In this document: in pieces, positions 1,312-33,306 of the stretch | Layout: the number at the start of each line of letters is the position of its first letter | Numbering within the stretch: the stretch's first letter is position 1 | Virus record (IMG/VR): IMGVR_UViG_3300032069_000035 | Coordinates: 1 to 33,549 of that record | Source of the DNA: a virus | Direction: 5' to 3' (one strand) | DNA: 33,549 nucleotides | The notes under the pieces: model-generated | What the model saw: the letters and a program-made list of their open reading frames with translations, nothing else | Told to the model about the DNA's origin: nothing | The model's database searches: none | Made by a program: the position numbers and the translations under genes

Positions 1312-2841
1312 GTGTACGATAAACAGAAAGCTGAAAAGGCAGTTAAATTTATTGAAAAGCTCAAACATACCAAAGGAAAATTCTACGGCAAAGACTTCGT
1401 GCTTTTACCTTGGGAGCGTGAGGTCATTGAGAAACTCTTTGGAAGCATCCAAGCTGACGGATATAGACAGTATCGTACGATCTATGTTAGCACGCCTAAG
1501 AAACAGGGCAAAAGCGAGATCGCCGCAGCGTTGGGACTCAAATGTTTATTAGCAGATGGAGAAATGGGTGGAGAAGTATACTGTTGCGCAGTCGACAGGG
1601 ATCAGGCTACTATGGTATTTGATGTAGCTGCTGAAATGGTAAGGCAAAATAAGGTGCTATTGAACCATTGTAAAATTAATGAATCTCGCAAGAGAATAAT
1701 TGTTCATAGTACCAATTCTTTTTTCCAGGTTCTCAGTTCTGAATCTCGTACAAAGCATGGGCTCAACCCTTCGTGTATTATCTTTGATGAGTTACATGCT
1801 CAACCGAATGACAAATTATGGAATGTTATGACGTATGATTCTCAAGTAACTCGTACTCAACCAATTCTTTTTGTTATTACTACTGCTGGAAATGATAAGC
1901 AAAGCATTTGTTATAAACAATATTCTTATGCCAAGAAAGTTCAAAAAGGACTCATAGAGGATCCGCATTACTTGCCGATTATTTATGAAGCTACTGAAGA
2001 AGAGGATTGGAACTCTCAAAAGGTTTGGGAGAAAGCGAATCCTTCTCTAGGACAGACAATTTCGATAGCTTCTATTAGGGCTAGTTATGATAAAGCAGTA
2101 GAGGTTCCCAGTGAAGAGAATCTTTTTAGACAGTATCGACTAAATCAATGGGTATCTCAAGAGACTAGGTGGATACCTATGAGTGTTTGGCTTAGCCAAG
2201 AAGAGCCAGTTTTTGAGGCTCAATTATTAGGTCAGACATGTTGGAGTGGGTTAGACCTTTCGAGTGTGTCAGATATTACTGCTTATTCATTACTCTTTCG
2301 AGATGGAAAAAAGATTAAAACAATTACTCGATGTTTTATACCAGAAGAAACTATGATTCGCAAGGAACGAGAAGATCATGTTCCGTATAGTTCATGGGAA
2401 AAATTAGGTTATATTATAAAGACTCGTGGCAACCGGATAGATTATGACATGGTAAAGAAGTGGATTTTTGATGATGCTAAGAAATTTCATATACAGCGAA
2501 TGGGCTTTGATCCTTGGAACTCTTCTCAAATGGTTCAAGATTTAATGGATGAAGGGATTGAAATGGTAGAAGTAAGACAAGGGTTTAAGTCTTTGAATCC
2601 TCCTACTAAGGAGTTTGAAGTCTTAGTAATGGAAGGAAATTTTATTCATGGGAATAATCCAGTATTGTCGAATCATTTTGATAATGTAACGCTTGAAATA
2701 GATGCGGCTGGTAATATAAAACCTTCTAAGGGTAAGTCTACTCAAAAGATAGATGCTTTGGTGGCTAACATTATTGGACTGGCTGTCATGGATAAAGAAG
2801 AGCGTAGCGTATATGAGGATCGAGGTGTTGCAACATTATGA
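1312..2841 (+). CDS. terL: Terminase large subunit (HK97-type packaging ATPase/nuclease)
   Basis: The 509-residue protein is the motor and nuclease that packs and cuts phage DNA at the portal. The N-terminal ATPase has a Walker A-like STPKKQGKS (residues 60-68) and Walker B CIIFDE (155-160) with the catalytic Glu. A C-terminal RNase H-like nuclease follows, with acidic residues in GLDLSSVSD (about 307-315) and near KIDALVA at the end. Length is typical. The start is uncertain: GTG 1312 is the first usual start in frame, but GGAGG at 1292-1296 lies 15 bases away and would suit an ATT at 1306 better. Its end overlaps the portal gene by four bases (ATGA). Confidence 0.95.
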   Translation: MYDKQKAEKAVKFIEKLKHTKGKFYGKDFVLLPWEREVIEKLFGSIQADGYRQYRTIYVSTPKKQGKSEIAAALGLKCLLADGEMGGEVYCCAVDRDQATMVFDVAAEMVRQNKVLLNHCKINESRKRIIVHSTNSFFQVLSSESRTKHGLNPSCIIFDELHAQPNDKLWNVMTYDSQVTRTQPILFVITTAGNDKQSICYKQYSYAKKVQKGLIEDPHYLPIIYEATEEEDWNSQKVWEKANPSLGQTISIASIRASYDKAVEVPSEENLFRQYRLNQWVSQETRWIPMSVWLSQEEPVFEAQLLGQTCWSGLDLSSVSDITAYSLLFRDGKKIKTITRCFIPEETMIRKEREDHVPYSSWEKLGYIIKTRGNRIDYDMVKKWIFDDAKKFHIQRMGFDPWNSSQMVQDLMDEGIEMVEVRQGFKSLNPPTKEFEVLVMEGNFIHGNNPVLSNHFDNVTLEIDAAGNIKPSKGKSTQKIDALVANIIGLAVMDKEERSVYEDRGVATL

Positions 2842-5800
2842 GATTAGGTAATCTCGAAATAAAACTTACTAAGAGAGAAGAGGCTCCTATCGCTTCTCTT
2901 GCTCAGGCAACTACAGACTTTCTGCAAGGGAATGACACTTCTGGCTTCACTTCCGCCGGTTCTTATATTGATCAGACAACAGCTTTAAATATCAGTGCAG
3001 TGCAAGCGTGTGTAAGAGTTCTAAGTGAAGATATAGGAATGTTGCCCGTAAAGGTATATAAAACTGTTAAAAATGGCAAGGAAGAAGATTCAACTCATCC
3101 GCTTTATTCAATTTTACACAATAAACCGAACGAATGGATGACTTCTTATGTATTTTATCGCCTTTTAATGCAACATTTGCTACTTTTTGGCAATTTTTAC
3201 TGTGAAATCATGTATAAAAAGGGTGAAATTGTAGGGCTTTTACCGATTCATCCCTCATTAGTTACAGTGAAAAGAACTCAAAATGGTAAGTATTTTTACG
3301 AAATTAGCATAGGTAATGTTAAGAAACTACTCCAATGGTACTACGTAATGCATGTTTTAGGTATGTCAGATGATGGAATAAATGGTTTAAACCCTATTGA
3401 AATGGCTCGGAAATCACTAGGTTTGAGCCTTGCTGCGGATACTTTTGGATCCAATTTTTTCGGGCAAGGTACAAATATGGGATTAGTTCTCGAACATCCA
3501 GGGAAACTAAGCACAACTGCACAGGACAATCTTAAAAAATCTATTGAACAAGAAAACGGTGGACTTTCTAATACTCATAAGATTTTAATTCTTGAAGAAG
3601 GCATGAAAGCAAACAAAAATGTGATTAATCCTAACGATTCGCAATTCCTGGAGTGTGTTATTCCTGGAACAAAAATATCAATGGCTGATGGATCGTTATG
3701 TTTTGTTGAAAATTTAAAAAAGGGTGATGAAGTTATTGCATGGGATAATGGTTTTAAGAAAGCATCTGTTGCAGAAGTAGGCGAAGCTAAGATAAAAAAT
3801 CTTGTTAAAATCAAAACTGCTAGAGGGAGAGAATTAACTGCTTCTTTCGACCACCCTTGTTTAGTATTGAAAAAACTTAGAACTGATGGAAACAGGATGA
3901 CTGACAGAATCCCTGAGTGGATACCAATAGGAGAATTAGAAATCGGGAATTATATTCGATCAGAAATAACGGGAAATCCTTTAGTGTTAGATTGTAATAT
4001 TGATAAAGGATGGTTAATTGGAGCTTTAACAGGTGATGGTTATGTAAGATCAATGGGATGCTCCTTCTCTTCTAACGAAAATGGCGTTTCGCTTAAAATG
4101 AAACAAGCGTTAATGGATTTAGGGGGAGACCTGAAAAAGAAATCTGGGGAAAACTGTGATTGGGAAATTGTAACAAAAGGTATAGGGAAAAGCGGTTCAA
4201 AAATAAGAACTTTTTTAAATGAGTCAGGGCTTATCGGAAAACACTCAGATACAAAAAGAGTTTCCAAAGATGTAATGACCAGTGGCTTTGATGTTTGGAG
4301 AGGATTTTTGTCAGGATATTTTGATACCGATGGTTCAATCCGTTCCATATATGGAAAACAAAAACCTTCTGCATATTGGAGTAGTGTTAGTAAAGGATTA
4401 TTGGAAGATTGCCAACACTTACTTTCAATGCTTGGAATCCAAAGTTCTATTTATAAAATGGGTAATGGTGGGAAGAAAACAATAATAGGAATAGAATGTA
4501 ATACATTAGAAGGTTGGGGTTTGTATGTTATAGGAATAGGAGAGTTGAGAAAACTTAGCAAAATTCTTGTTCTTTCTCATCAAGAAAAGAAAAAAAGATT
4601 AGAGGAATATAATAATTCTCTAAAAAGTAGATACACAAAAGAGAATTTTGAATATGACAGAATAATATCAGTAGAAAATATAGGAGAGGGACAAACTATT
4701 GGTATAGAAATAAAAGACTATCATACCTTTGTTACTAATGGCTTAGTGACTCATAATACTAGAAAGTTTCAGAAGGAAGATATTGCTACTTTATTCAGGG
4801 TTCCATTACATTTGATTCAAAGTTTAGACAAAGCTACAAATAATAATATTGAACATCAATCTTTAGATTATGTAACTCACTCGCTTTTACCGTGGATTAA
4901 GAATATTGAGCAAGCTATGATGAATTCCTTGTTTATTTATTACCCTGACACTTTCCCTGAATTTACAGTAGATGCTCTTTTAAGGGGTGATTTTAAAACT
5001 CGTATGGAAGGTTATAACTTAGGTATAGGGAATGGCATGTATTCGATAAACGAATGCCGTGCAAAAGAAAATATGAATCCAATAGAGAATGGTGACGAAC
5101 ATTATATTATGGTGAATAATATGGCTCCCATTAATACAGTAGGGCAAGAACAAACTCCAGTCCAAAAGAATGAAAAGTTAGAACAAGAAATGAAACCAGA
5201 AGAAAAGAAAATGGAAAAGAAGTCAATTGAAGAACCAATAGAACTACGAAATGACAATGGTATGTTACTGAAAGACTTAGCGATTCGCAAATCCGATGGT
5301 TTAAAAAGAAACTCAATTCGTAATAGTTTTATACCTGTTTTTGATGCAATAACGCTTGAAATTGTAAAGCGTGAACGTGCAGATATTATGCGATGTGTTG
5401 AAAAAAGACTTCAAACGAAACGACCAAAAGAAGAAATTATTAAAGGATGTGTAGAGACTTTTTATCTTACTCATCCCGAATACATAAAGAATAAAATGTC
5501 GGCTTTGGTTAAAGGATTAACTAGGGCTATAAATGATGCTGCTTCAGGTGAGATAAACGGTACAGGATTTACAGATGAGAAAATGCAAGGCTTTGTGGAT
5601 GATTTTACCGATAAGTATGCTACGAAATTTAATGAACGTTCCCAAGGTCAGGTTAGACAAATTGTAGAAGATTCTGAATATGGCGATATTAAAGGGAATT
5701 TAACGACTCGCTTTGATGAATGGTCATTGACTAGACCTGGCAAAACATCATTAGAGGTTACCGTACAACTAGCAGAAGCTGTAGCTGCAATGGTATTTTT

Positions 5801-5999
5801 TAGCAATTTATACAAGGTTCAATGGTCAACTACTTCTGAAAAGCCATGTCCTATCTGTGAAGAATTAAACGGAAAGATAATAACGGAGGGTGAAACTTTC
5901 GCTAAATCAGGCGATCAAATATTAGATTTGCAAGTGTATCAGGATAAGACGCATCCGCCTTTACATGAGGCGTGCCAGTGCGTGCTTATACCTGCGTGA
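2838..5999 (+). CDS. Portal protein with an in-frame intein, fused to a MuF-type head protein
   Basis: A single 1053-codon frame encodes three parts. Residues 1-272 and 641 to about 770 are an HK97-family portal, the ring through which DNA enters the head. Residues 273-640 are an intein that splits the conserved portal motif ending SQFLE and resuming TRKFQKEDIA. After a charged linker (about 770-805), residues about 825-1053 match the phage Mu gpF/SPP1 gp7-like head morphogenesis domain, with CPICEELNG (1004-1012) and HPPLHEACQC (1039-1048) as its metal-binding signature. After splicing, a 685-residue portal-MuF fusion would remain. Portal and MuF are usually two adjacent genes, so both the fusion and the intein are unusual, although each is known separately in phages. 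The next gene begins nine bases later. Confidence 0.93.
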   Translation: MRLGNLEIKLTKREEAPIASLAQATTDFLQGNDTSGFTSAGSYIDQTTALNISAVQACVRVLSEDIGMLPVKVYKTVKNGKEEDSTHPLYSILHNKPNEWMTSYVFYRLLMQHLLLFGNFYCEIMYKKGEIVGLLPIHPSLVTVKRTQNGKYFYEISIGNVKKLLQWYYVMHVLGMSDDGINGLNPIEMARKSLGLSLAADTFGSNFFGQGTNMGLVLEHPGKLSTTAQDNLKKSIEQENGGLSNTHKILILEEGMKANKNVINPNDSQFLECVIPGTKISMADGSLCFVENLKKGDEVIAWDNGFKKASVAEVGEAKIKNLVKIKTARGRELTASFDHPCLVLKKLRTDGNRMTDRIPEWIPIGELEIGNYIRSEITGNPLVLDCNIDKGWLIGALTGDGYVRSMGCSFSSNENGVSLKMKQALMDLGGDLKKKSGENCDWEIVTKGIGKSGSKIRTFLNESGLIGKHSDTKRVSKDVMTSGFDVWRGFLSGYFDTDGSIRSIYGKQKPSAYWSSVSKGLLEDCQHLLSMLGIQSSIYKMGNGGKKTIIGIECNTLEGWGLYVIGIGELRKLSKILVLSHQEKKKRLEEYNNSLKSRYTKENFEYDRIISVENIGEGQTIGIEIKDYHTFVTNGLVTHNTRKFQKEDIATLFRVPLHLIQSLDKATNNNIEHQSLDYVTHSLLPWIKNIEQAMMNSLFIYYPDTFPEFTVDALLRGDFKTRMEGYNLGIGNGMYSINECRAKENMNPIENGDEHYIMVNNMAPINTVGQEQTPVQKNEKLEQEMKPEEKKMEKKSIEEPIELRNDNGMLLKDLAIRKSDGLKRNSIRNSFIPVFDAITLEIVKRERADIMRCVEKRLQTKRPKEEIIKGCVETFYLTHPEYIKNKMSALVKGLTRAINDAASGEINGTGFTDEKMQGFVDDFTDKYATKFNERSQGQVRQIVEDSEYGDIKGNLTTRFDEWSLTRPGKTSLEVTVQLAEAVAAMVFFSNLYKVQWSTTSEKPCPICEELNGKIITEGETFAKSGDQILDLQVYQDKTHPPLHEACQCVLIPA
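3654..4757 (+). mobile_element. Intein with LAGLIDADG-type homing endonuclease, inside the portal gene
   Basis: This 368-residue intein runs from Cys273 to Asn640 of the precursor. Splicing blocks are visible: Cys1 followed by VIPGTKI, block B with SFDH (Ser in place of the usual Thr of TxxH), block F DYHTFVTN, and block G VTHN ending in the expected His-Asn, followed by extein Thr641 as the +1 nucleophile. Two dodecapeptide motifs of a homing nuclease lie between them, LIGALTGDG (393-401) and FLSGYFDTDG (490-499), each with an acidic residue at the catalytic place. All motifs look intact, so it should splice and could home into intein-less portal alleles. It interrupts one of the most conserved portal segments, as inteins usually do. 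Confidence 0.93.
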
Positions 6000-6008
6000 G
6001 GAGGTATT

Positions 6009-6587
6009 ATGGAAGAAAGATGTTATAAAACTCAAATAGAACTTAGAGATGGTGAAAAACCCATGATTCGGGCATTGATACCCTACAATTCTTTAAGTGA
6101 GGATCTAGGTGGTTTCCGAGAATTGTTAGTGCCAGGGTGTTTTTCTGAAAGTAATTTAGTAACCGATGTAAGGTCTTTCTGGAATCACAATAAAGACATG
6201 ATTTTAGGAAGAACTTCCGCTGGTACTTTGAGATTAATTGAAGGCGAACAAGGCTTAGATTATGAAATTGATCCAGCTGATACTTCTTGGGGACATGATG
6301 CAGTAGTATCTATTCGCAGGGGCGATGTAAATAATACTTCATTCGGATTCCGTACAGATAAATCAGTTGGGGGAATTGTAGAATGGGATGAAAGTAATCC
6401 AGGATATTTGGTACGCAAAGTTATAAAAGGAAATTTGATTGAGGTAAGTCCAGTCATATTTCCAGCTTATGCAGAATCAAGCATTTCTGTACGCTCTTTA
6501 CTGGATGACTTTCTAAAAGAAAAGTCGTTAAAAGATCATGTGAGTATAGATATTTTAAGACAAAGATTAAGATTATTGGAGGTTTAA
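6009..6587 (+). CDS. Prohead maturation protease (HK97 gp4-like)
   Basis: The 192-residue protein belongs to the HK97-type prohead proteases (herpesvirus-assemblin-like serine proteases), which cleave the capsid N-terminal delta domain after prohead assembly. The catalytic His is in FWNHN (H60) and the nucleophile Ser in NNTSFGF (S111); the context SWGHDAVVSIRRGDV is typical of the family. It starts at an ATG with GAGGAGG 5 bases upstream. It lies between the portal and the major capsid gene, the canonical HK97 order. Confidence 0.93.
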   Translation: MEERCYKTQIELRDGEKPMIRALIPYNSLSEDLGGFRELLVPGCFSESNLVTDVRSFWNHNKDMILGRTSAGTLRLIEGEQGLDYEIDPADTSWGHDAVVSIRRGDVNNTSFGFRTDKSVGGIVEWDESNPGYLVRKVIKGNLIEVSPVIFPAYAESSISVRSLLDDFLKEKSLKDHVSIDILRQRLRLLEV

Positions 6588-12062: not shown

Positions 12063-12407
12063 ATGATATTGATGAAGAACTTTGACATGATAATACCGGA
12101 GGGCAGGACAGCGGTATTAAACGGAATGGAATACACGATTAAAAAAGTACCTGCCAGAGTAACCTTAGAATTGTTGAAAGCATTGGATAACAAGACAAAT
12201 GAGAGCAATTCGTTATGGTTTGAATTTCTGTTGGAAAAAACAGTCATTGTACTGAATTCCAATGGGTATCATTTAGTGACGAAAGAATCTATGCTGGATT
12301 CTGCGGAATTGGAACAATTAACAGAATTCTGTCGGTTTATCGTAATGCCTGAAACAATCAAGGATACAAAAAAAAACGAAGAGGTTCCGGAGGTTCCGAA
12401 CCCTTAA
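12063..12407 (+). CDS. Tail assembly chaperone, short form (gpG-like)
   Basis: The 114-residue protein precedes the tape measure gene and ends through an A-rich slippery site, as tail chaperones do. It should coat the tape measure during tail assembly. AGGGGGA at 12052-12058 lies close before ATG 12063; an in-frame ATG follows at 12072. A -1 frameshift at 12371-12377 fuses its first 105 residues to the downstream frame. No membrane segment is visible. Confidence 0.88.
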   Translation: MILMKNFDMIIPEGRTAVLNGMEYTIKKVPARVTLELLKALDNKTNESNSLWFEFLLEKTVIVLNSNGYHLVTKESMLDSAELEQLTEFCRFIVMPETIKDTKKNEEVPEVPNP

Positions 12408-12622
12408 ATGTGGGAAAATTATTTGCAGCCTTTAGTAGCACATTTGCTTGGGCAACTCCTGAGTATATGCTGGACGAAATGTCCTTGGATGAAATTCTGA
12501 CCTTGTTAGAAGAGTACGCCAAACTAAAGGCTCCAGATAAATTAGATGAAGAGGAGCAAAATGAACAAGGTCGCAGGAGAGCTAGAATACTAATGAAAGA
12601 CCATATAAGGACGGAAGAATGA
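12063..12622 (+). CDS. Tail assembly chaperone, long frameshift product (gpGT-like)
   Basis: The downstream frame (GTG 12410 onward, 70 residues if started alone) is open back to 12377 in the -1 frame relative to the short chaperone. A slip on A_AAA_AAC at 12371-12377 yields a 186-residue fusion: 105 residues from the first frame, then RRGSGGSEP and the T-like domain with a helical, acidic C-terminus. The second frame has no ribosome binding site of its own worth noting, which favours frameshifting. As in lambda G/GT, only a fraction of ribosomes should make it. Its end overlaps the tape measure start (ATGA). Confidence 0.85.
12371..12402 (+). promoter_or_regulatory. -1 programmed ribosomal frameshift signal
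   Basis: The heptamer A_AAA_AAC (12371-12377) is in exact register with the upstream frame. Five bases later a hairpin can form: GGTTC (12383-12387) pairs with GAACC (12398-12402), with GGA/TCC stacked inside after a one-base bulge. The hairpin is built from a perfect tandem 9-base repeat, GAGGTTCCG at 12381-12389 and 12390-12398. Slippery site, spacing and stem all agree with a canonical -1 signal. Confidence 0.85.
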
Positions 12623-25072: not shown

Positions 25073-25327
25073 ATGGAGGCAGAAATTGTTAAAATATTAG
25101 CCAGTTATGGAGCATTAGGGGCGTTCTCAATTTTAGCGGTGATACTTTTAGTGTATGTTCTCAAAACAAACGAAAAAAGAGAGGCTTCATTTCAGGCGTT
25201 TTTAATCAAGATGTCCGAAAGTATGCCGGCACTAGAAAGTATATGTAAACGAATTGAAGAAAAGCAAGATGCTCATATCTCCTCCGTGAACTCTTCGCTT
25301 ACAACAATCAAAGAGCATTTAAAATGA
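25073..25327 (+). CDS. Holin-like protein (UviB/BhlA type)
   Basis: The 84-residue protein has one transmembrane segment (about 12-31, YGALGAFSILAVILLVYVL), then KTNEKREASFQAF and a charged helical cytoplasmic tail. The pattern of short N-terminus, single membrane helix, LKTNEKRE and coiled coil is that of BhlA/UviB-type holins. It overlaps the endolysin start by four bases, which strongly supports a lysis role: the holin opens the membrane for the endolysin. Confidence 0.8.
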   Translation: MEAEIVKILASYGALGAFSILAVILLVYVLKTNEKREASFQAFLIKMSESMPALESICKRIEEKQDAHISSVNSSLTTIKEHLK

Positions 25328-25956
25328 AACTCTACTGCAATCCAGTTAAGGCGATAGTTTTACACCATTCTGGTTCACAACCTGGCGATTTAGCCGTATG
25401 GAACGCTATAATAGAATACTCAAAAAGACAATGGGCAGATAAATGGTATCCCTACACTTGTGACTATCATTGGGGGGTAGGGGTCTCTGGAAAGATTTAC
25501 AAAGGACAACCAGAGATTTACTTTGCGGTACATTGCGGAATTGATGAATGGGACTCTTATCAAGACGAATCCGGCGTTAATAATCAAAACAGTATCGCTA
25601 TAGCTGCGATAGGCAACTTTGAGACCTCAATACTCCCAGAGGTTCAATTACAGGGGATAGTTGATTGTATTAAAGACGTAAAAAGTAGATACCCAAAAGC
25701 ATTTCTTAAAATACACAGAGAATTAGTTTCGACTGATTGTCCTGGATACAAATATAACTATCCTGAGATATTTAGGAGGCTAGGATTGAAATTTAAAGAT
25801 GTAGACGAAAAACGATGGTCATTCCCTGCGATTGACTGGGCAAGTAATGAAAAAATAATGAAGGGCGATGAGTACGGCTTTCGTCCAAAAGAAAGTTTAA
25901 CTCGTGAAGAAATGGCACAGATACTTTTCAATTTACACAAAACAGGGAAAATATAA
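25324..25956 (+). CDS. Endolysin: N-acetylmuramoyl-L-alanine amidase with SLH-like domain
   Basis: The 210-residue protein has an Amidase_2-type catalytic domain (1 to about 150) that cuts the bond between muramic acid and the stem peptide. Zinc ligands are likely H14 or H15 in VLHHSG, H131 in KIHREL and C139 in TDCPG; HWGVGVSGKIYKG and AVHCGI are further family features. Residues about 157-206 (FKDVDEKRWSFPAIDWASNE and GFRPKESLTREEMAQIL) match one S-layer-homology domain, which binds pyruvylated or similar secondary wall polymers. No signal peptide is visible, so release needs the holin. The start overlaps the holin gene. Confidence 0.92.
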   Translation: MKLYCNPVKAIVLHHSGSQPGDLAVWNAIIEYSKRQWADKWYPYTCDYHWGVGVSGKIYKGQPEIYFAVHCGIDEWDSYQDESGVNNQNSIAIAAIGNFETSILPEVQLQGIVDCIKDVKSRYPKAFLKIHRELVSTDCPGYKYNYPEIFRRLGLKFKDVDEKRWSFPAIDWASNEKIMKGDEYGFRPKESLTREEMAQILFNLHKTGKI

Positions 25957-26424: not shown

Positions 26425-26461
26425 CTCCCAGATTTTGTTTCCCTTTATTCTGGGGGTTTTT
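26425..26461 (+). terminator. Rho-independent terminator of the late operon
   Basis: CTCCCAGA (26425-26432) pairs with TCTGGGGG (26449-26456), one G-T pair, with a 16-base loop, followed by five T (26457-26461). It closes the tail-lysis transcription unit. The T run also lies in the -35 region of the next HNH cassette promoter. Confidence 0.75.
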
Positions 26462-26484
26462 AATTGGTATTTTTATGGTATAAT
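26457..26484 (+). promoter_or_regulatory. Extended -10 promoter of leader copy 2
   Basis: TGG directly before TATAAT (26479-26484) gives an extended -10 (TGnTATAAT). The -35 place at 26457-26462 (TTTTTA) is poor, which extended -10 promoters tolerate. Transcription would start near A26491, at the foot of the leader hairpin. Confidence 0.65.
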
Positions 26485-26490
26485 TAATCC

Positions 26491-26542
26491 ATGGAGCCAT
26501 GCCGTAATCATGGCTCCTAACTTATTACGGAGGTTGAAGATG
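26491..26542 (+). ncRNA. SD-sequestering pseudoknot-type leader, copy 2
   Basis: GGAGCCATG (26493-26501) and CATGGCTCC (26509-26517) form a perfect 9-base stem. The entire 7-base loop CCGTAAT (26502-26508) is complementary to ATTACGG (26524-26530) after the linker TAACTT. The last two G of that strand are the first two of GGAGG (26529-26533), 6 bases before ATG 26540. The hairpin plus loop pairing would form an H-type pseudoknot or two exclusive states; both bear on access to the ribosome binding site of the HNH gene. Confidence 0.85.
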
Positions 26543-27277
26543 GAAAGTTTATTTAAAGCAAAAAAGTGTTCTAAGTGCGGTCAAGAAAAAACCTTAGATC
26601 AGTTTTACAAAAATAAAAAATCACAGGATGGTTTTAAAGCTAGATGTAAAAAATGTGATCGTGATAATTTAAAATCAAATAAGAGGATTATTTTAACACC
26701 CAAGATTGGTTTTAAATATTGTTCAAAATGTAAACAAGAAAAATCGGTAGATCAATTTTCTATTCTTAAAACAACAAAAGATGAACTAAATTCCTGGTGC
26801 AGGGGATGCGTAAATAAGGGCGGAAGAGAAAGATACCAGAGAAACAAACAAAGAAAAAGAAAAGGAAAGAAAATATATGATAAAAGATACTATGAGAAAA
26901 ATAAAGAAAAGGTTCGGTATAAAGCAAAAAAATATTATCTCAAGAATAAGAGTAAAATGATAGCAAAAAATAAAGAATGGCGTAAAACAGAAAAAGGAAA
27001 AGCCCTTGGAATTAGAAACAATCATAAAAGAAAGGATTTGTTTAAAAATGCAATTTGTGACCTTACTGCCAAACAGTGGGAAGAAATCAAGAAAGCTCAG
27101 AATTATAAATGTGCTTATTGCGGAGAGACAAAACATCTTTACAGAGATCATATTGTACCAGTTTCTAAGGGCGGCGATTTAACTAAATCAAACATACAGG
27201 GTTTGTGCATTTCGTGTAATTCTAAAAAATCAAACAAAATTGATTCAACTGCTTTTACTCTGATCTTAAAATCTTAA
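26540..27277 (+). CDS. HNH endonuclease with two N-terminal zinc fingers
   Basis: The 245-residue protein has two zinc-finger-like repeats, KCSKCGQEKTLDQF...CKKC (about 9-39) and YCSKCKQEKSVDQF...CRGC (60-90), a long Lys-rich helix region (about 95-165) and a C-terminal HNH core: C191-x2-C194, D203-H204, N218 and C223-x2-C226. It is most likely a free-standing homing-type nuclease. It has its own promoter, structured leader and terminator, separate from the late operon. The frame is open upstream to 26435, but the ATG at 26540 has GGAGG at the right distance. The base composition is even more AA-rich than its neighbours, fitting a mobile gene. Confidence 0.88.
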   Translation: MESLFKAKKCSKCGQEKTLDQFYKNKKSQDGFKARCKKCDRDNLKSNKRIILTPKIGFKYCSKCKQEKSVDQFSILKTTKDELNSWCRGCVNKGGRERYQRNKQRKRKGKKIYDKRYYEKNKEKVRYKAKKYYLKNKSKMIAKNKEWRKTEKGKALGIRNNHKRKDLFKNAICDLTAKQWEEIKKAQNYKCAYCGETKHLYRDHIVPVSKGGDLTKSNIQGLCISCNSKKSNKIDSTAFTLILKS

Positions 27278-29503: not shown

Positions 29504-29935
29504 GGGAAAAGCGTTAGAAGATGCTGTATTTTGCGGAGAATATATAGCTAAAAAAGATTCATGGGTTTATGGTTTTTTAATTGGTAGATATGACCCTTGC
29601 CAAAAAAAATAATTAAAAATGCTTTTATTGATAATGGAACATGTCTTGGTAATCCAATAAAGGTCAATCCTGCTACTGTTGGTCTCTGGACAGGTTTAAA
29701 CGATAAAAATGGATTAAAGATATTTGAAGGGGACAGAGTTGAATCTATTTGGAGAGTTTTAGAAGGTACTGTAAAGTTTGGTACATTTCATGAAATGTAT
29801 GAGAATATCTATACTGATTTACAACATGGTTTTTACGTTGAGGACGATAATGGAGATACGGGAAGCATTTATGGAGCTAATGGAGTAATATGGTTTGAAA
29901 TTATCGATTCTATCCATGATGAGCATTATGTTTGA
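29487..29935 (+). pseudogene. YopX-like protein, frameshifted at a poly-A run
   Basis: The first frame (29487-29612, 41 residues: MNWEFRGKALEDAV... SWVYGFLIGRYDP) and the second frame (read from about 29603 to 29935) together give one YopX-type protein; the second half has NPATVGLWTGLNDKNGLKI and FEGDRVE, the family core. The break is in eight A at 29602-29609: one lost A (nine expected) or a -1 slip on A_AAA_AAA would join them into ...DPCQKK-IIKNAFIDNG. AAGGAAGG precedes ATG 29487; the second frame has only a TTG at 29597 and no good site. It is a broken gene, a homopolymer sequencing error, or a programmed frameshift. YopX-type proteins are common in phages and of unknown function. Confidence 0.8.
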
Positions 29936-29959
29936 TTTAATCACAAAAAATAGTATAAT
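29932..29959 (+). promoter_or_regulatory. Promoter of leader copy 3
   Basis: TTGATT (29932-29937), a 16-base spacer and TATAAT (29954-29959) lie across and after the stop codon of the YopX-like frame. The -35 block TTGATTTAATC equals that of copy 1. Transcription would start near A29967, at the foot of the leader hairpin. Confidence 0.7.
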
Positions 29960-29966
29960 ATCTTAC

Positions 29967-30020
29967 ATGGGAACAGTGCCAGTACCATTGTTCCCTAACC
30001 TGTACTGGAGGTGTAAGATG
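29967..30020 (+). ncRNA. SD-sequestering pseudoknot-type leader, copy 3
   Basis: GGGAACAGTG (29969-29978) pairs with CATTGTTCCC (29986-29995), ten pairs with one G-T. The 7-base loop is now CCAGTAC (29979-29985), and the downstream strand is GTACTGG (30002-30008), again perfectly complementary, after the 6-base linker TAACCT. GGAGG at 30007-30011 overlaps it and lies 6 bases before ATG 30018. Stem and loop both differ from copies 1 and 2 with compensating changes, which is direct evidence for both helices. Confidence 0.87.
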
Positions 30021-30581
30021 GAAAGTTTATTTGAGATAACAAAAAAATGTTCTAAGTGTGGTCAAGAAAAACCATTAGATCAATTTTATAAATACAAAAA
30101 AGCCAAAGATAGGTTGAACTATTGGTGTAAAGAATGTTCGAATGCACAGCAAATAGAATGGAGAAAAGCAAACAGAAAAAAACGTTGTGAATATTCTTCC
30201 AGATGGAGAAGCAAAAACTATCAAAAAAACAAAAGGTACAATATCAAATATATAGAAACATGGAGAATTTCTCCACAAGGAATTATATCAATAGCAAAAA
30301 CTAGAATCAAAAGGGAAAAGGCATATAAAAACATTATTAATGATTTAACTTTAAATGATTGGCTAAAGATAAAAAAAGCACAGGACTACAAATGTGCATA
30401 TTGTGGGGAAAAAGAACCAGAAATAAAACTTACCATGGATCATATTATACCGTTATCAAAAAAGGGACATCATACAAAAAACAATATTCAGGGTTTATGT
30501 TGTTCTTGTAATAGCAAAAAGAACAACCGTATAGATTCTACTGCTATGGAATTAATTTTAAATCAGGAGGTGAACCCATGA
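30018..30581 (+). CDS. HNH endonuclease with one N-terminal zinc finger
   Basis: The 187-residue protein is a relative of the 26540 gene: both start MESLF and share KCSKCGQEKxLDQFYK. Here only one finger is present (C11, C14, C37, C40), then a basic linker and the HNH core: C126-x2-C129, D141-H142, N156 and C161-x2-C164, followed by NSKKNNRIDSTA, also shared. It is inserted within the replication operon behind its own promoter and leader. Its stop overlaps the next gene (ATGA). The ATG at 30018 is chosen because of GGAGG and the match to copy 2; in this copy the leader also reads in frame, which is probably accidental. Confidence 0.88.
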   Translation: MESLFEITKKCSKCGQEKPLDQFYKYKKAKDRLNYWCKECSNAQQIEWRKANRKKRCEYSSRWRSKNYQKNKRYNIKYIETWRISPQGIISIAKTRIKREKAYKNIINDLTLNDWLKIKKAQDYKCAYCGEKEPEIKLTMDHIIPLSKKGHHTKNNIQGLCCSCNSKKNNRIDSTAMELILNQEVNP

Positions 30582-31346: not shown

Positions 31347-32929
31347 CCGGTTTTTTAGAGCAAGCACTAGAATACAAGGTTAAATATGGTTTTAATGTGT
31401 TCCCATGCGGTAAAGACAAAAAACCATTGGTCGAAACTTGGTTACCATATCAAACAGAAAAGGTTGAAGATCGCCAAATCATTGAATGGTGGGAGAAGAA
31501 CCCGGAAGCTAATATTGCAGTAGTCACAGGCAACATTTCGAATTTAGCAGTAATAGATATTGATTCGAAAGAAGGCGAGACCTGTTTATTAGAGAAATTC
31601 CCTGAGATAGATTTAGTCAACAATCCAGTAGTAGACACTCCTAGAGGTGGCAAGCATATTTATTTTCAATGCCAGGATGAGGAATTAAGAAACGGAGTCA
31701 ATACGATCAAAGGGTGTGATTTCAGGGCAAATGGCGGTTATGTTGTAGCACCCCCCAGCATTAGCGGGACAGGAAAGCAGTACGTTTGGAAAAATCCTTT
31801 GACAGCAAATCGCAATATTCTTCCTTCTTCTTATGCATTATATATTAAGAGCTCTAACTCTTATAAGCAAAATGTTACGCAAAATGTTACGCTCTTCCAA
31901 AAGGGTACAAGAGACAATGACGTTTTTCACACTGGTCATCAACTTAAGAAGGCTGGCTCGTCAAATGAAGAAATAAGACAGACTATGTATTTAATTGGAA
32001 GAAGCTGTAACCCTCCATTACAAGATGCTGAGATAGAGATAAAATATCAATCCGTCATAAAATTCAATGAGCGTAAAGATATGAATATCACTGAGTTTGT
32101 GGAAAATTGGATTTCGCAAACCGATGGAGCCTTTACAATCGTCGAGTGTAACAAAAGCGTAACACAGTGTAACATTGCGTCACAAAATACAAATCTAAGA
32201 ATGATATTTAAAAGATTGAAAGAAAAAGGCTTTATATCTAAGTTTGGAGAAAAAGACGGATATTATGTAAGGGTAGACGACAAGGCAGACGATATTGATT
32301 GGTTGACAGCTCCTACAGACCCGATCAACGTAGTTTATCCTCTAGGTATTGAGCTTTTATTTCAAACCTATCCTAAAAACATTATTGTTATTGCTGGTGT
32401 ACCTGATGCTGGAAAAACCGCTTTTCTTTTAAATTTTGTTCGGATGAATATGGATCTTTTTGATATTCATTATTTCAGTTCAGAAATGGGAGCGATGGAA
32501 TTTAAAAACCGATTAAGTAAATTTCGAGGGATTAATTTAGAAGACTGGAAGTTTAAAGCAAAAGAACGATGCATTGATTTTCATAATGTAATTCAACCCA
32601 ATGCGATTAATATCATTGATTTTTTGGAAATGTCCGATAATTTTTATAAAATATCTGGATATTTTCAAGAGATCCACAATAAACTCCAAAAAGGTATTGC
32701 TATTATTGCTATCCAGAAGAATCCTGGTACTGAGGTTGGACTTGGTGGATATAGAGGAATGGAGAAGCCTAGATTGTATTTAAACATGGACAGGGGGAAA
32801 ATAAAAATAACAAAAGCGAAAAACTGGAGAACTGATATATGCCCTAGCGGTTTATGCTTAGATTTTAAAATTGTTCAGGGCTGTGAATTTATAGTATCAA
32901 ATGATTGGTACAAGGAAGGTGGCAAATGA
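31343..32929 (+). CDS. Primase-polymerase/RecA-like ATPase replication protein
   Basis: The 528-residue protein joins three parts. Residues 1 to about 165 are a primase-polymerase (bifunctional DNA primase/polymerase) domain with VIDIDS (D72, D74), RGGKHIYF (H105) and CDFRANGGYVVAPPS. Residues about 188-245 are a PriCT-like helical part. After a winged-helix-like segment (about 250-312), a RecA-type ATPase has Walker A GVPDAGKT (352-359) and a likely Walker B at INIIDF. It should prime, and perhaps unwind, phage DNA. ATG 31343 is preferred over ATG 31325 because of AGGGA at 31332-31336; the earlier ATG is inside an iteron. Its own linkers contain further iterons. Confidence 0.88.
   Translation: MTGFLEQALEYKVKYGFNVFPCGKDKKPLVETWLPYQTEKVEDRQIIEWWEKNPEANIAVVTGNISNLAVIDIDSKEGETCLLEKFPEIDLVNNPVVDTPRGGKHIYFQCQDEELRNGVNTIKGCDFRANGGYVVAPPSISGTGKQYVWKNPLTANRNILPSSYALYIKSSNSYKQNVTQNVTLFQKGTRDNDVFHTGHQLKKAGSSNEEIRQTMYLIGRSCNPPLQDAEIEIKYQSVIKFNERKDMNITEFVENWISQTDGAFTIVECNKSVTQCNIASQNTNLRMIFKRLKEKGFISKFGEKDGYYVRVDDKADDIDWLTAPTDPINVVYPLGIELLFQTYPKNIIVIAGVPDAGKTAFLLNFVRMNMDLFDIHYFSSEMGAMEFKNRLSKFRGINLEDWKFKAKERCIDFHNVIQPNAINIIDFLEMSDNFYKISGYFQEIHNKLQKGIAIIAIQKNPGTEVGLGGYRGMEKPRLYLNMDRGKIKITKAKNWRTDICPSGLCLDFKIVQGCEFIVSNDWYKEGGK
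31873..31890 (+). repeat. Two TGTTACG iterons inside the primase gene
   Basis: TGTTACG starts at 31873 and 31885, 12 bases apart and in the same direction as the main array. They encode NVTQNVT in the linker between the primase-polymerase and PriCT-like parts, where protein sequence is probably free to vary. Confidence 0.65.
32148..32174 (-). repeat. Three inverted iterons inside the primase gene
   Basis: GTAACA, the reverse complement of TGTTAC, occurs at 32148, 32159 and 32169, spaced 11 and 10 bases. The cluster lies in the second interdomain region (residues about 269-278) and has the same helical phasing as the main array, in opposite direction. Confidence 0.65.
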
Positions 32930-33306
32930 GCGATAAATATTATTGTAACCATTGTGGAGATGAAACAGAAGGATTAATCATAGAATCTAAACCGCCGCAC
33001 GATAAGCAAATAGTTTGTAGTGTTTGCAACCGGTGGATTAAATACCTGCCAAAAGAAAAGAACCTAGACAGAAGAGTCAAAAATAGATATAAACCGGTTG
33101 ATTTGGGCGTAGATCATTGCGAGTTATGTTTGCGAAAAAAAGAAATGCTGGGAAAGTACGAATGTCTAATCATTCATCATAAAATACCTATCGAAGAAGG
33201 CGGCTTGGATGTTAAAGAGAATTGTTTGGTTGTATGCTCCAAATGTCATTCTGAAATACATCACAATATTACTTATTTGAGAGATCATTTTACAAAGGAG
33301 AAATGA
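32926..33306 (+). CDS. HNH endonuclease with N-terminal zinc ribbon
   Basis: The 126-residue protein starts in an ATGA overlap with the primase stop. An N-terminal CNHC...CSVC ribbon (about 8-41) is followed by CELCLRKK (about 66-73), the HH pair in LIIHHKIPIEEGG, N in KENCLVV and CSKCHSEIHH, the HNH core. Unlike the 26540 and 30018 genes it has no private leader and is part of the operon. It may serve packaging, recombination or homing. Confidence 0.85.
   Translation: MSDKYYCNHCGDETEGLIIESKPPHDKQIVCSVCNRWIKYLPKEKNLDRRVKNRYKPVDLGVDHCELCLRKKEMLGKYECLIIHHKIPIEEGGLDVKENCLVVCSKCHSEIHHNITYLRDHFTKEK

Follow-up and report, generated by a model that had tools for sequence, protein, structure and literature searches.

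A probably mobile LAGLIDADG intein in a phage gene that fuses an HK97-type portal to MuF

In the 33,549-nt stretch of DNA analysed here (the window), we consider it very probable that a mobile LAGLIDADG intein has inserted itself into what is otherwise an ordinary gene of an HK97-type siphophage, a fusion of portal and MuF. The intein is predicted both to splice and to home. In the proposed pathway, the precursor would be translated as one chain of 1053 residues, and the intein would excise from it by the standard route, using Cys1 and Thr+1 as nucleophiles together with its His-Asn end. Joining QFLE to TRKFQ would restore a portal stem helix and yield a portal-linker-MuF chain of 685 residues. 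The portal ring would be built of twelve of these chains, with the MuF domains reaching on flexible linkers presumably into the head. The endonuclease of the intein probably cuts the intein-free portal genes of co-infecting phages at the conserved insertion site, whereupon repair would copy the intein into them.

The reading frame and its intein-free counterpart

The single open frame at 2838-5999 comprises 1053 codons and encodes an HK97-type portal with a LAGLIDADG intein inside it at QFLE/T (the slash marks the insertion site), followed by a flexible linker and a MuF domain (Table 1). In Pfam, the portal match (PF04860, 1.7e-96) is divided into two stretches; LAGLIDADG_3 (PF14528, 3.5e-17) lies between them, and Intein_splicing (PF14890, 4.3e-10) exceeds its cut-off. 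The NCBIfam model portal_HK97 (TIGR01537) matches the frame at 2.9e-74, and the intein N-terminal and C-terminal models of the same collection start at residue 273 and end at about residue 641, respectively. The intein corresponds to residues 273-640 (368 aa), and the exteins sum to 685 aa once joined. The open run of 368 codons is not due to chance, because the longest open run in 1000 base-shuffled copies of the intein segment averaged 54 codons and never exceeded 132. The order of portal, intein and MuF within one frame, which the first-pass annotation had read from the letters of the sequence, is confirmed. For annotation, a portal and a MuF domain seemingly parted by a LAGLIDADG domain should be read as one spliced product.

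Table 1. Features of the portal-intein-MuF frame and the following gene (window coordinates)
Feature	Coordinates	Strand	Evidence
Portal N-extein, residues 1-272: wing, first stem helix, clip, start of second stem helix; HK97-type	2838..3653	+	PF04860 match 53-272; TIGR01537; L002 model vs 8cez, 8fql
Intein, 368 aa, CVIPGTK...TNGLVTHN, with LAGLIDADG homing endonuclease	3654..4757	+	PF14890, PF14528; empty site in L002; same-site family in other portals
Cys1, predicted splicing nucleophile, N-terminal junction QFLE/C	3654..3656	+	Invariant in alignments A6 and A8
First LAGLIDADG motif LIGALTGDGYVR, acidic residue D128	4008..4043	+	Alignment A8
Second LAGLIDADG motif FLSGYFDTDGSI, acidic residue D226	4305..4340	+	Alignment A8; D226 and G227 invariant
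C-terminal splice junction HN/T: His367, Asn368, Thr+1	4752..4760	+	H367 and N368 invariant in A8; flanking sequences
Portal C-extein: remainder of second stem helix, tunnel-loop region, long wing helix, crown side	4758..5147	+	Second PF04860 stretch; 94% identity to L002 over first 139 residues
Charged flexible linker, portal to MuF	5148..5258	+	L002 model residues 407-438, pLDDT <50
MuF-type minor head domain, 246 aa, helical, C-terminal CPxC...HPPLHxxCxC motif	5259..5996	+	phrog_24918, phrog_2662; model pLDDT 96.8; BFVD matches; invariant Cys/His columns
Prohead protease, family S78, next gene	6009..6587	+	PF04586 6.1e-34; TIGR01543

The strongest evidence for the predicted boundaries of the intein, and for the putative spliced product as a working type of protein, comes from an empty site in the IMG/VR locus L002. 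This 14.6-kb contig has the same gene order as the window (HNH, small and large terminase, portal, protease, capsid). Its portal-MuF protein lacks the intein, is exactly 685 residues long and is 77% identical to the joined exteins of the window. L002 reads NDSQFLETRKYQ where the window has NDSQFLE-intein-TRKFQ, which puts the junction at QFLE/TRK, and when the entire L002 record was searched with the window intein, no copy turned up. Because L002 encodes a 685-aa version without the intein, the protein predicted to result from splicing occurs naturally, which upholds the 685-residue portal-MuF fusion foreseen by the first-pass annotation. A co-conversion footprint, seen as raised identity in the flanks beside the intein, was not found between the window and L002, since these flanks are 72-84% identical, within the range of the neighbourhood.

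The class 1 splicing residues C1, H367, N368 and T+1 are all present in the window intein and conserved in the alignments, and its two LAGLIDADG motifs have kept both acidic residues (D128 and D226). Block B retains His67 with Ser in place of Thr (ASFDHP), and block F has Gly in place of Asp (TIGIEI). These two substitutions might indicate a defective intein that cleaves only one junction or stays in the chain, leaving the portal and MuF as separate pieces or the gene dead. We regard such a defect as very unlikely, because the same Ser and Gly forms are common to many family members with open frames that keep every other splicing residue; Cys1, His, Asn and Thr or Ser at +1 are retained throughout, no aligned intein contains an internal stop, and the phage could not survive with a dead portal gene. 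The intein of the window is apparently intact and is predicted to splice, as judged from its boundaries and conserved catalytic residues, which also bear out the earlier description of a 368-residue, apparently intact element with two LAGLIDADG motifs. We infer that this copy splices and that its endonuclease cuts DNA.

The insertion site within the portal fold

The AlphaFold model of the L002 protein, made with 70 relatives (mean pLDDT 86.7), consists of a portal domain (residues ~36-405), a disordered linker of 32 residues (407-438, pLDDT <50) and a helical C-terminal domain. Its top matches in the PDB are HK97 portal structures, 8cez (Z 29.0, rmsd 3.9, 346 residues aligned) and 8fql (Z 27.0). 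Residues 273 and 274 of this model flank the insertion site, which is thus within the helix 266-286. In the SPP1 portal protein gp6, the clip comes between stem helices alpha3 and alpha5, and alpha5 is followed by the tunnel loop and helix alpha6 (PMC9701221). The motion of alpha5 is linked to packaging. Because the model follows the same order of elements (helix, clip elements, helix, loop, long helix), the helix split by the intein would be the equivalent of alpha5. With the intein placed in a stem helix, the unspliced precursor would presumably be unable to assemble.

The sequence around the site is nearly invariant as QFLE/TRKFQ across 104 site contexts from relatives, with Q and E before the junction and TRKFQ after it. 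As judged from these contexts, the intein site falls in the most conserved stretch of the HK97-type portals related to the window. Such portals are among the most widespread phage head proteins, and they now appear to have a recurring intein site at that stretch. Intein sites are known in terminase as well.

Same-site inteins and their mobility

Relatives of the intein in IMG/VR were reached only by means of the intein alignment (A6); no relative was recovered there with the single window intein as the query, nor any intein relative with patterns spanning the HNTRK junction. Fourteen other HK97-type portals have an intein at the same site with both of its junctions visible (L251-L261 and L270-L272), and three more same-site contigs break off within the intein and show one junction (L268, L269 and L294). 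All are uncultivated and share the insertion site and the intein family with the window; most of their portals, unlike that of the window, have no MuF tail. The residue at +1 is Thr or Ser in these carriers, and their inteins are mostly 40-53% identical to the window intein. Cys1, the final His-Asn and the Asp of the second LAGLIDADG motif occur in all complete inteins of the family (A8). Patterns for the QFLE junction led to 79 further portals, 78 of which have both halves joined without an intein. In a GenBank-derived phage collection, no record covers 80% of the ORF 2838-5999, and none of the matches listed has an intein at QFLE/T. In the open-licence papers that the searches covered, we did not find this same-site family of HK97-type portals described; an HK97-portal intein published elsewhere may have been missed. 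The existence of such a family is not surprising. The family offers a new natural set of inteins, and the window and L002 make a clean filled and empty pair for splicing and homing tests.

Kelley et al. 2016 (PMC5050341) listed portal (PORT) inteins in mycobacteriophages of subcluster C1. The LAGLIDADG portal inteins of the C1 phages Blubba, Cane17, Gizmo and ET08, with 356-357 aa, are near the 368 aa of the window intein in length, and they are the closest portal inteins in annotated phage records and rank among the best full-length matches there (28-31% identity to the window intein over the full length). However, their insertion site is FS/TLN instead of QFLE/TR, and their portal belongs to another family without a profile match to HK97-type portals. 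Structural equivalence of the FS/TLN and QFLE/T sites received no support from this profile comparison.

Related inteins in L262-L267 occupy a second site in HK97-type portals, DTKE/TTAWG, about 22 residues downstream, and leave the first site empty. The portal lineage of L262-L267 is related to the portal of L259, in which the first site is filled. By sequence, these are two alternative putative homing sites within one portal lineage.

Inteins and portals were compared pairwise for 14 carriers with the same site filled, the window among them. In 88 of the 91 pairs, identity is higher between the two inteins than between the two portals. The exception is the close trio L253/L254/L258, in which the portals are 67-71% and the inteins 55-67% identical, as under vertical descent; because this trio shows the reverse relation, the inteins are not simply slower-evolving. 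In AU tests, the portals rejected the tree of the inteins (p 0.0018), and the inteins rejected that of the portals (p 1.7e-6). Although several nodes in both trees have low support, congruence is still rejected. The tree conflict, the identities of inteins and portals, and the empty site in L002 together make the pattern that of a homing element. These sequence comparisons show that the intein family moves horizontally between distant portals, a result that applies to the family and not to the donor or date of the window copy itself.

The first-pass annotation had also suggested that the need for splicing could time head assembly. The intein would then be a regulatory switch, whose slow or conditional splicing delays the portal-MuF protein. 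Such a role might be favoured by an insertion that splits the portal stem helix and would thereby keep the precursor from building a normal ring, and environmentally triggered splicing has been discussed for other inteins (PMC7156551). Against it, the nearest relative, L002, does without the intein, none of the portals and fusions fetched independently of the intein has one at QFLE/T, the history of the intein is that of a mobile element, and no conditional feature was identified in it. A switch is therefore highly improbable in our view. Very doubtful, too, is a broader version in which splicing of the interrupted portal-MuF fusions gates a ring of twelve tethered MuF domains and portal splicing is a possible control point of head assembly. 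In this version, the recurrent intein family that has hopped between distant portal lineages is dedicated to HK97-type portals, at a stem-helix site coupling the terminase to the tunnel loop.

Among the carriers tested, a full MuF tail occurs only in L268 and a partial one only in L252. Since most carriers lack MuF and most MuF fusions lack the intein, splicing and MuF dosage are unlinked. A role of splicing in timing head assembly has no support: the intein is absent from L002, occurs mostly in portals without MuF and has a horizontal history. Because the intein and the fusion are independent of each other among the relatives, the intein most likely rides along as a selfish element and does not serve to time head assembly. 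The partial case, L252, has 281 residues after its same-site intein without the CPxC end, and possibly represents a truncated or frameshifted portal-MuF fusion.

The MuF-type tail and the portal-MuF fusion

We assign the tail to the MuF type on its relatives and fold, not as a curated member of PF04233, and for the window protein alone the label is weak. PF04233 scored 18.2 bits on the window protein, below the cut-off of 29.6, and reached E<=0.01 in 22 of 71 fused relatives. The isolated tail matches head-morphogenesis families of PHROG; phrog_24918 matches the window tail (3.7e-7), and phrog_2468 was found in 26 of 53 relatives of the tail. A third family, phrog_2662, matches 52 of the 53 tails; it is a portal family whose profile extends into the MuF tail, and the portal-MuF architecture is thus already represented in PHROG. 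The isolated tail was modelled with a pLDDT of 96.8 and a pTM of 0.91. A PDB fold search with this model returned no significant match, and the predicted viral models of BFVD matched it with TMq 0.4-0.75, many of them named minor capsid or head morphogenesis protein and some portal. The motif CPxC...HPPLHxxCxC is conserved among the relatives of the tail.

The fusion was at first thought to set this phage apart from phages with separate genes, an expectation that the relatives do not bear out. Among the loci fetched with portal queries, we counted 89 closed portal-MuF fusion frames, including the window. The other 88 are full-length (639-750 aa), have no intein and come from viruses and prophages, with hosts, according to the genome records, in Bacillota, Actinomycetota, Chloroflexota, Spirochaetota, Planctomycetota and others. 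Fused portal/MuF genes have been published for the Microbacterium phages EA3, EA5, EA8 and EB (PMC7302621), in which, by the published description, portal and MuF form one chain as in the window. The 670-aa portal of Streptomyces phage Chymera also carries MuF in one chain without an intein, and it aligns end to end with the fusion of the window at 32% identity. On account of the 88 further fusions, the Microbacterium cases and Chymera, the portal-MuF fusion is a known and widespread, if little-discussed, variant.

In SPP1, the MuF protein gp7 enters the head by binding the portal gp6 (PMC6316719). The two are encoded by separate genes there, whereas the window has a single chain. Gp7 is present in few copies per head and is dispensable for assembly; without it, about 25% of the virions are infectious. 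In the window phage, the MuF domains would presumably lie within the head, at the portal. A dose of one MuF for each portal subunit, however, follows from the fusion only if the 32-residue disordered linker stays uncut. A prohead or host protease might cut the linker after the fusion has been made, freeing MuF so that its copy number would not be tied to the ring. The predicted disorder would suit such a cut, and the S78 prohead protease, encoded directly downstream, could in principle make it. Yet no cleavage site is known, and the linker is so poorly conserved between the window and L002 that no conserved cleavage motif is evident, and we think cleavage rather unlikely. The portal-MuF fusion offers a simple system for comparing the action of twelve tethered MuF domains with that of the few free copies in SPP1.

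Elsewhere in the 33,549-nt window, no RNA families or tRNAs were found. Two adjacent small ORFs in different frames upstream of the tape measure gene (12063-12407 and 12410-12622) resemble a pair of tail assembly chaperone genes that a programmed frameshift could join. The amidase-type endolysin at 25324-25956 carries an S-layer homology repeat (PF00395) at its C-terminus. This repeat points to a host whose cell wall binds SLH domains, perhaps one of the Bacillota. Two paralogous HNH endonuclease genes (26435-27277 and 29895-30581) have zinc-ribbon-like N-termini and are 47% identical over 188 residues. Further HNH-like ORFs lie at 270-710 and 32905-33306, and it is possible that the phage carries several free-standing homing endonucleases besides the intein.
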